Positions 16,807-42,555 of a stretch of DNA of 43,727 nucleotides are shown here, in pieces; the stretch's first letter is position 1; every line of letters starts with the position of its first letter. Below the pieces are notes generated by a model. The model ran no database searches and had not been told where the DNA came from. It saw only the letters and a program-made list of their open reading frames with translations. The DNA is from Deltaproteobacteria bacterium (GTDB lineage: Bacteria > Desulfobacterota > Dissulfuribacteria > Dissulfuribacterales > QOAL01). The stretch covers positions 1-43,727 of the forward strand of contig JALSQG010000078.1 in the NCBI GenBank assembly GCA_026985565.1, written 5' to 3'. Both the position numbers and the translations under genes were made by a program.

Positions 16807-16880
16807 TGGGGGATCGTCTAATGGCAGGACGGTAGACTCTGGATCTACTAGTCTAGGTTCGAATCCTAGTCCCCCAGCCA
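16807..16880 (+). tRNA. tRNA-Gln, anticodon CTG, CCA encoded
   Basis: Cloverleaf folds: acceptor TGGGGGA/TCCCCCA, anticodon stem GTAGA/TCTAC with loop CTCTGGA, T arm CTAGG-TTCGAAT-CCTAG, then GCCA. Confidence 0.96.
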
Positions 16881-40000: not shown

Positions 40001-41797
40001 ATGAAAAGATACGGTATCCTTGTTATTCCCTTCATACTGTTTTCGGTTATTCCTGTTTGGGGCCAACCGTTTACACCCTTCAAGGTGGAGAAAATACCGG
40101 GTACCTACTATTACACTCCTTCTGCCTCATCTAAGGAATTTGCCGTCTTTGGATATGTGAGCAAGATCACTCCAACCCCTTCCGAAATAGAAGCAGAAAA
40201 AAGGCGTATCAGTGCCATTATAGACGAAAGTGTGAGGACGAATTATGGCTCATGGCAAAATATGGATAGGGCCTTTAGAAAAGAAGGTCATAAGACCCTT
40301 GATGAGATAGAGGCCAAGGCCCCTTCCTGGCTTCGCTACCTTTTGCCCCCGACCCTTATAAAGGAGACCGTCCCTCTTTTCATAAAAGGCGCCCTTTTGT
40401 ACGCAAAGGCCCATCCAGAGGCTATGCGGGAGCCAGTTGGAAATGTTGGAGAAACCGGCATTTTGGTTGTGGATAAAGGGGGCAGTGTTTCAAAGATACC
40501 CCTTGGCATCAATGCCCCTGTGGTATCTATTTCAATTTCAAAAAATGCAAGACTTGCAGCCGTATTGACAGATATGGGCGTTGAAGACGAAAAGGGCCGT
40601 CTTCATCCGCTTGGTGAAATATCAATCATAGATCTTGACATAAAAAAGCGAGTTCGCTCCTGGATTTTTGCAAATATTGCACAAAGAGTGGCCTTTACGC
40701 CCCTTCCAAATGTGATTGGCTTTGACTGTTATAAGGATATGAAAGATTTGAGCAAAAGGCAGCTTTGTTTCTTGAATTTAAAGGACGGCAACCTTTTGAA
40801 ATATCGATTTGATTTTTGTGCAGGCGGCTCAGGAGACATCTTTGGTAAAACTATTCATTACGATGGATTCATTTTTCACCCAAGGGAACCTGTGGTTGCC
40901 CTTTATAACGGCAAGGCACAGTATGAAATTTGGAAAATATCAACCAAAGAGCGCATCTTCAGGGTCAGAAGCGGACACCCTTTTGTTTTTGCCAGTATGC
41001 ACCCCTGGGCTTTTACAAGCCTTGGACAGCTTTGGGATTACAGAAGCGGCAGGTTGCTCCACAGGGTAGACCTTCCTCAGAAGGCCAGTTTTTTGCAGCA
41101 AGCTATCTTTTCATCCAAGGACCAGAGGCTTTTTTGTTATGACCTTGGGCGTCTTAGGTGCGTGGACATAGACACAAGAACAGGCAGGGTAAAGAACATT
41201 AGAACATCTGCAAAAAGGGGAGGCCTTTTCTTCCTTTTGCCTGAAGAGCGGTATTTGGCAAGCTTTGTTCCAAATGGAGGCCTTGTTTCCTACAAAGGGC
41301 GCTACCTCAGGCGGCAGCGGCTTTGTCTTAGGATCTTAAGAAGCAAGGATCTTGCATGGGTCCAGGACATATGCATGGCAAATCAATCAACTGTATTGGA
41401 CGGAGCCGCAGCGGGAAATATAGTGGCAGTCTCAGACTTTGAAAGCCTTCACTTATTCGTTGGCCCTGATAGGCCCTTACCTCAAGAACATCCCAGTTCC
41501 ACAAACCAAAACCTGTCTGTCCTTGAACAGATAGCTGCCAATCCCCAGGCCTTTGCTGGCAAAATCATAGAGATTGACGGATGGGCATGGGGATGGATGT
41601 CAAGGCCTCCCAGAGAAGTCTCCATGAAGAATCTGGCTTTTGCCAAAGGCAATTACGGCAGCAGGAATCATGGCACATTTACAGACGGCAGGATATGGAT
41701 CTTGTACCCAGTTCCAGTCAACTTCTCAGGCCCGCTTCATGTAAAGGCAAAAGTAGAGATAACCCCTTTTGGATGGCAACTTACACCCGTCCGTTAA
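40001..41797 (+). CDS. Exported protein, possible beta-propeller with C-terminal OB-like segment
   Basis: Signal peptide MKRYGILVIPFILFSVIPVWGQ; repeated beta-rich segments; SD GGGGGAGGTGG. Confidence 0.65.
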   Translation: MKRYGILVIPFILFSVIPVWGQPFTPFKVEKIPGTYYYTPSASSKEFAVFGYVSKITPTPSEIEAEKRRISAIIDESVRTNYGSWQNMDRAFRKEGHKTLDEIEAKAPSWLRYLLPPTLIKETVPLFIKGALLYAKAHPEAMREPVGNVGETGILVVDKGGSVSKIPLGINAPVVSISISKNARLAAVLTDMGVEDEKGRLHPLGEISIIDLDIKKRVRSWIFANIAQRVAFTPLPNVIGFDCYKDMKDLSKRQLCFLNLKDGNLLKYRFDFCAGGSGDIFGKTIHYDGFIFHPREPVVALYNGKAQYEIWKISTKERIFRVRSGHPFVFASMHPWAFTSLGQLWDYRSGRLLHRVDLPQKASFLQQAIFSSKDQRLFCYDLGRLRCVDIDTRTGRVKNIRTSAKRGGLFFLLPEERYLASFVPNGGLVSYKGRYLRRQRLCLRILRSKDLAWVQDICMANQSTVLDGAAAGNIVAVSDFESLHLFVGPDRPLPQEHPSSTNQNLSVLEQIAANPQAFAGKIIEIDGWAWGWMSRPPREVSMKNLAFAKGNYGSRNHGTFTDGRIWILYPVPVNFSGPLHVKAKVEITPFGWQLTPVR

Positions 41798-42057
41798 ACC
41801 CAGATTATGCACTTCAAATGCCTGAGAAAAGGATTTTATTAGAATAATTAAATGGTTATCCTCATCTTTTTACGTAATTGTCTTCACCCAAAAGGTGAAT
41901 CTTTTTTGGTCATTAAATCTCAGGCATTTGAAGCCGCAAGGGGCTCGCAAGTTTACCGAATCTGCTTTGTTGTCGGACACTTGAAGTACCAAAGTACGTC
42001 TGCGTGTCCTCCGCCTCGCATCTTCGGCAAACTTGCGAGCTGCATAATCTGGGTTAA
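41794..42057. repeat. Structured element with terminal inverted repeats and two internal stem arms (three-way junction)
   Basis: TTAAACCCAGATTATGCA/TGCATAATCTGGGTTAA; CTTCAAATGCCTGAGA/TCTCAGGCATTTGAAG; GCTCGCAAGTTTACCGAA/TTCGGCAAACTTGCGAGC. Confidence 0.85.
41883..41908 (+). terminator. Terminator-like hairpin TTCACC-CAAAA-GGTGAA followed by TCTTTTTT
   Basis: 6-bp stem plus T tract, 86 bp after the stop of the 40001-41797 gene. Confidence 0.55.
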
Positions 42058-42081
42058 AGAACTCAAATGCTACATAATGGG

Positions 42082-42555
42082 TTAAAAACGCCTCTTGTGC
42101 GCCATCTGAAGGCCTATATATGCCTCCCTATGCTTTTTCAAGACATCTTTGGCATTAGACCCCTTTGGCAAGCTCGATGTAACTTTCTTTGCCCACCTTT
42201 TCCATTCATCATAGGACATGGACTTTCTGACCCTGACATATTTATCAAAATCGTTGGCAATGGCAGTACAGAAACAACGCATGCAACAGATATATTCCTC
42301 GTTGGCTCTTATCTTTGCCACGTCTAAATTCCCTTCATTCAAGGCTTCAAGCAGACATACATGCCTTTCAGCATAGAAATTGAAGACAGGGCCTTGCCTG
42401 TCATTTTCTTTTGAATCACAGGGGAAACAGCATGCCTTTCTGGGGCAGAAGGTTCCGCCGTCTTGATTTGGGCATGAAGCCTGTATTTCAAGCAAGGCGT
42501 TACAAACCAATTGACCAATTGAAGAATAATAAGATTTTTCTTCTGTTTTTTTCAT
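42082..42555 (-). CDS. Cys-rich hypothetical protein (157 aa)
   Basis: Cys-rich CPNQDGGTFCPRKACCFPC and YICCMRCFC; 66 bp downstream of the AAA+ gene. Confidence 0.65.
   Translation of the reverse strand: MKKTEEKSYYSSIGQLVCNALLEIQASCPNQDGGTFCPRKACCFPCDSKENDRQGPVFNFYAERHVCLLEALNEGNLDVAKIRANEEYICCMRCFCTAIANDFDKYVRVRKSMSYDEWKRWAKKVTSSLPKGSNAKDVLKKHREAYIGLQMAHKRRF

Follow-up and report, generated by a model that had tools for sequence, protein, structure and literature searches.

A putative IS1380-type MITE with conserved structured modules at the stop codon of a Dissulfuribacterales gene

The window, that is, the whole stretch of DNA analysed here, comprises 43,727 nt of a Deltaproteobacteria bacterium contig (JALSQG010000078.1). 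Near its right end, two convergent genes at 40001–41797 (plus strand) and 42082–42555 (minus strand) flank a 255-bp element (41799–42053), which lies 1 bp from the former and 28 bp from the latter. The element is bounded by a perfect 13-bp terminal inverted repeat, reading CCCAGATTATGCA at 41799–41811 on the plus strand, where it is common to all copies of the family, and recurring as its exact reverse complement at 42041–42053 on the minus strand (TGCATAATCTGGG on plus). Outside the repeats, the same 5 bp, TTAAA, are found at 41794–41798 and 42054–42058 as an unstranded target-site duplication. Because the TAA stop codon of the gene upstream lies within the left duplication, the insertion left that gene's reading frame intact. 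The first-pass annotation had placed the region between convergent genes, which the flanking ORFs bear out, and had described an outer pair of repeats at 41794–41811 and 42041–42057. Both were located there, and their one-base difference in length is explained by the 13-bp terminal repeat together with the 5-bp duplication TTAAA. The 255 bp contain no transposase ORF and are crossed only by a fortuitous frame of 77 aa; no sigma-70 promoter was found inside the element. Just to its right, CTACATAATGGGTTAAA at 42070–42086 resembles the right end of the element, TGCATAATCTGGGTTAA, and may be the remnant of an older insertion.

Between the terminal repeats lie two structured arms, both read here on the minus strand, whose stems, linker and inner hairpins all proved to be present as first proposed, the stems at the coordinates given. 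Arm 1 is closed by a 16-bp stem, with the first strand at 41812–41827 forming a perfect complement to the second at 41918–41933. Its loop holds a small hairpin, TTCACC...GGTGAA (41883–41899, minus strand; helix 6, 81% of cells paired), which recurs in the family while the surrounding loop does not. A 9-nt linker, CCGCAAGGG (41934–41942, minus strand), separates the arms; in the family alignment, other subfamilies carry CCCGNAGGG instead, which is able to form a mini-hairpin. Arm 2 is a 98-nt hairpin (41943–42040, minus strand; helices 2–4) and the best-conserved module of the family, matching our covariance model R1 with 114.4 bits. Its stem pairs 41943–41960 with 42023–42040 at 17 of 18 positions. 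The conserved core motifs CAACAAAGCAGAT (41960–41972) and AGATGCGAGGCG (42012–42023), both on the minus strand, are the same motifs that were recovered in the multi-phylum pattern scan described below. Further inside are a GGACAC/GTGTCC hairpin (41975–41980 and 42004–42009) and GTAC-CAAA-GTAC at 41986–41997. RNA folding gave z-scores of −8.9 for the plus and −10.8 for the minus strand. On both strands the fold outscored 200 of 200 dinucleotide shuffles and is therefore far beyond chance, as the first reading of the sequence had supposed. At the element, no Rfam family matched at the gathering threshold, and a search of four copies gave no credible match up to E = 1. The sole Rfam match in the window is a tRNA gene at 16807–16877 on the plus strand.

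Copies of the element were sought in the host's own assembly (2.08 Mb in 209 contigs) and in related genomes, where the first-pass annotation had advised looking for multiple copies. The own assembly holds a second copy, identical at 255 of 255 positions, and four diverged ones, all at unrelated sites; the two identical copies imply recent movement. The target duplications at these six copies are TTAAA, TTTAA, TTAAA, ATTAT, TTTAT and ATTAA. At the site of one of them (C132), four sister species (G002, G003, G005 and G008) are empty, their alignment running continuously through a single TTTAA, and the site of another (C15) is likewise empty in related species. Empty orthologous sites were thus recovered for these two copies and not for the locus of the window copy. 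Of 60 related genomes searched, 32 had matches to the family, which was found in 15 of 33 genera and spans the order. From these and additional loci, 67 distinct elements were gathered, each having the arm-2 core and both of its ends; 44 of them are exactly 255 or 256 bp long, and 51 are flanked by perfect 5-bp duplications with the consensus WTNAW, in which the T at position 2 and the A at position 4 are present in all 51. A duplication of TTAA had been anticipated; the duplication itself stands, and its sequence is the 5-bp WTNAW rather than TTAA. The neighbours differ at every copy. A shorter, 124-bp form, consisting of arm 2 between two terminal repeats, was found four times, twice with perfect duplications. 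In addition, a lone perfect CCCAGATTATGCA end (L015, G000:C160:5118-5130) lies without a partner beside an A/T-rich site and is possibly a solo end or a remnant. Carriage by plasmids or phages was considered and rejected, no match being found.

The three stems are conserved across the family, and the compensatory changes that the initial annotation had suggested looking for are indeed present. In an alignment of 31 elements all three stems are kept, with 92.4% of 2,135 cells paired and double-sided changes in 35 of 69 pairs; when the partners are shifted by one, two or three columns, pairing falls to 29–43%. In the arm-1 stem (helix 5), 96% of cells are paired and 11 of 17 pairs show double changes. 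Between subfamilies, the arm-1 stems share little sequence and retain their pairing. Changes in the arms were also mapped, by crude Fitch parsimony, onto a tree of 55 elements. On internal branches 56 of 74 changes keep the pair (Watson-Crick or G-T), whereas at the tips 55 of 114 keep it and 59 break it. This contrast is what constraint on replicating lineages, together with the decay of dead copies, would be expected to produce. The MITE arms also show a raw strand asymmetry (75 G-T versus 22 A-C cells), which we do not treat as main evidence because it shrank to 62 versus 38 when counted by parsimony as tree events (p = 0.02).

The ends of the element point to the IS1380 family as its source. 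Transposase genes or relics of this family (PF13701) occur in several genomes of the order, and at relics in five of them (G009, G015, G027, G028 and G036) the ends differ from those of the MITE by one or two bases, with the sequence CCC(A/G)(A/G)ATTATGCA or slight variations on it. Two MITE-type ends in G009 are 1.64 kb apart and enclose a broken transposase. About 9 of 11 flanks of the IS relics fit WTNAW when read by eye. As the relics have these terminal repeats and follow almost the same target rule, mobilisation of the MITE in trans by such a transposase follows as the likely route. The expectation of a parent transposon with the same ends was therefore borne out in part: relics with shared ends exist, but ends identical to those of the MITE were not found around any intact transposase gene. 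The one intact PF13701 element studied in detail (L092) has ends that are related but not the same (CCTGAATAATTCA). The 209 contigs of the own assembly gave no PF13701 match; the source may have been lost or may be missing from this fragmented assembly.

The presence of several copies, their target duplications, the empty sites and the IS relics that share the ends all agree with the original suggestion of a MITE-like or IS-end-derived repeat. We conclude that 41799–42053 is very probably a non-autonomous IS1380-type MITE, mobilised in trans and carrying structured modules that fold from one strand. The insertion would have hit the upstream gene precisely at its stop codon and duplicated TTAAA, and the MITE was most likely moved in trans by an IS1380-family transposase recognising the 13-bp ends. 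The two structured modules that it carries may matter for the spread of the element itself or for its being tolerated. They would fold, either as RNA or as ssDNA, from a single defined strand, which in this copy is the minus strand. The host genes on either side would make no systematic use of the element. A structured RNA had been among the early proposals; for the two arms it is plausible, while the outer pair behaves as a transposon end.

The position of the window copy between convergent genes, close to the ends of both, raises the question of whether the pair has adopted it as a bidirectional terminator or mRNA 3′-end element, as the first-pass annotation also considered. On the plus strand, T-rich sequence follows the inner hairpin of arm 1, and the hairpin scores there as terminator-like. 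However, the count of terminator-like structures in the region was 1 against 0.6 expected, and the family, as judged by simple ORF calling, lies between 17 divergent, 31 tandem and 12 convergent gene pairs, with 12 elements in the same and 19 in the opposite orientation to tandem genes. With no preference for arrangement or orientation, a host terminator is unlikely, and we regard this reading as highly improbable. Given this lack of bias, we favour a function that serves the element itself rather than the genes beside it. The same data bear on a fixed, non-mobile gene for a structured non-coding RNA or riboregulator of the neighbours. The strong fold, the covariation and the strand-specific G-T bias of the arm-2 superfamily would suit such a gene, but each copy has different neighbours, the copies are flanked by 5-bp duplications and orthologous sites were found empty, all of which contradicts it; nor is there an Rfam match. 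We consider a fixed gene refuted by the mobile copies, their duplications and the empty sites, and assign it almost no probability.

Two further alternatives concern the origin of the pairing and of the ends. Quasi-palindrome correction is known for imperfect palindromes and introduces double changes in one step. Template switching within the element could in this way produce arm pairing and covariation without selection or functional meaning, and the modest strand bias of the tree events in the MITE set fits this process. Conservation of the internal-loop motifs across phyla, in addition to the stems, argues against it, as do arm-1 stems that differ along their whole length, with little sequence in common between subfamilies, and still pair, and a G-T excess in arm-2 hairpins (177 versus 53 A-C; 81 versus 14 by hairpin, among the 118 in the matches listed) that is unexpected from a symmetric DNA process. 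We therefore judge template switching unlikely as the explanation of the pairing, though it deserves some weight. That the ends derive from another IS family, their likeness to IS1380 relics being a coincidence of A/T-rich ends, could be argued from the lack of an intact partner with identical ends. Against this, PF13701 relics in five genomes have 13-bp ends that match those of the MITE (in G009 on both sides), and the relics mostly follow the WTNAW rule as well; a coincidence of this kind seems very unlikely.

Arm 2 extends beyond the MITE. Its covariance model matched 51 of 198 genomes of the phylum, and its two loop motifs, searched as an exact degenerate pattern for which we estimate about 0.2 matches by chance, matched at least 119 stretches. 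Among the matches listed, record names include Deltaproteobacteria, Nitrospirae, Rokubacteria, Aminicenantes and Omnitrophota, as well as Acidobacteria, Chlamydiae, Bacteroidales, Pseudomonas, Guyparkeria and others; many of these records represent metagenome bins and may be mislabelled. Across the phyla, the arm-2 core shows strong covariation. When 82 hairpins were aligned to the model, 92% of cells were paired, compared with 32–43% for slid partners, in an alignment that leans towards its own model. A model-free count, with the strand set by the motifs and not by the stems, was made on the 118 hairpins among the matches listed: the G-T excess given above is found in register, while slid registers gave G-T/A-C counts of 180/156, 158/124 and 219/147. 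Although the count ignores relatedness, this excess points to a strand-specific, single-stranded, RNA-like fold.

Five loci (L257, L285, L325, L360 and L300) hold arm-2 elements of 216–256 bp with other terminal repeats, of the CCTGAATCCGTGA or CCTAAATTCTGCA types, and four of the five have perfect 5-bp duplications that are not WTNAW. Elsewhere, in records of Pseudomonas, Variovorax and Bacteroidales, arm-2-type hairpins with longer stems and without recognised terminal repeats have ordinary chromosomal genes on either side (L264:7212-7294, L296:7109-7190 and L263:7030-7112); the genes flanking the L264 hairpin, from a reading of their proteins, are presumably purH and purD. A Mu-like prophage as carrier of the Pseudomonas and Bacteroidales hairpins was rejected, given the ordinary chromosomal setting of L264 and the absence of a phage match in L263. 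In L306, two inverted hairpins lie about 0.9 kb apart and could have bounded a transposase, but the frames between them are host-like only. Tentatively, and with somewhat less than even confidence, we propose that arm 2 represents an undescribed structured element of many bacterial phyla, with the motifs AGATGCRAGGCG and CAACRMMGCAGAT in internal loops and freely varying stems, which would fold from a single strand as RNA or ssDNA and would repeatedly have been carried between differing transposon ends. 'Undescribed' is provisional: neither the motifs nor a matching description was found in open-access text, the literature that the search covered. By eye, no integron attC-like R/L boxes (GTTRRRY) were noticed in the core motif.

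MITEs are usually seen as eroded transposon ends around meaningless filler. What lies between the ends of the MITE described here is a conserved structure of three stems that shows compensatory change, varies little in length and is found order-wide, with one arm across phyla. This makes it testable whether a non-autonomous element spreads better, or is better tolerated, with a structured RNA or ssDNA cargo, and annotators can use the arm-2 motif to recognise a large class of dispersed hairpins that lack an Rfam family. Compared by description, Chunjie of Geobacter uraniireducens (235 bp; review PMC10969869) is similar in size, terminal repeats, direct repeats, intergenic location and copy number; the emphasis here is on conserved nested stems, compensatory change and near-constant length. 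REP/RAYT repeats, which are palindromes tagged with GTAG or CGTC (PMC3733652), are likewise dispersed and intergenic, and the core of arm 2, where it stands without terminal repeats, is similar to REPs. Arm-2 hairpins, by comparison, are 98–120 nt long and have two conserved internal-loop motifs, and no such end tag was noticed.

With IS1380-family insertion sequences (PF13701, DDE_Tnp_1_4), the MITE shares terminal repeats starting with CC, 13-bp ends that match relics of the same order and a 5-bp A/T-rich duplication. It differs in lacking a transposase ORF and in measuring 255 bp against about 1.6 kb, and its two structured modules were not seen in the IS1380 relics examined. At three loci (L099, L103 and L381), the IS1380 leader region contains a GGAAAGGAGGC-type stem and, after it, ACCAAAAAGGTGAC or a slightly altered form; the arrangement is similar to the inner hairpin in arm 1 of the MITE. 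CACCAAAAAGGTGA is common to this hairpin and the IS1380 leader, and descent of the hairpin from the leader may be taken as a lead.
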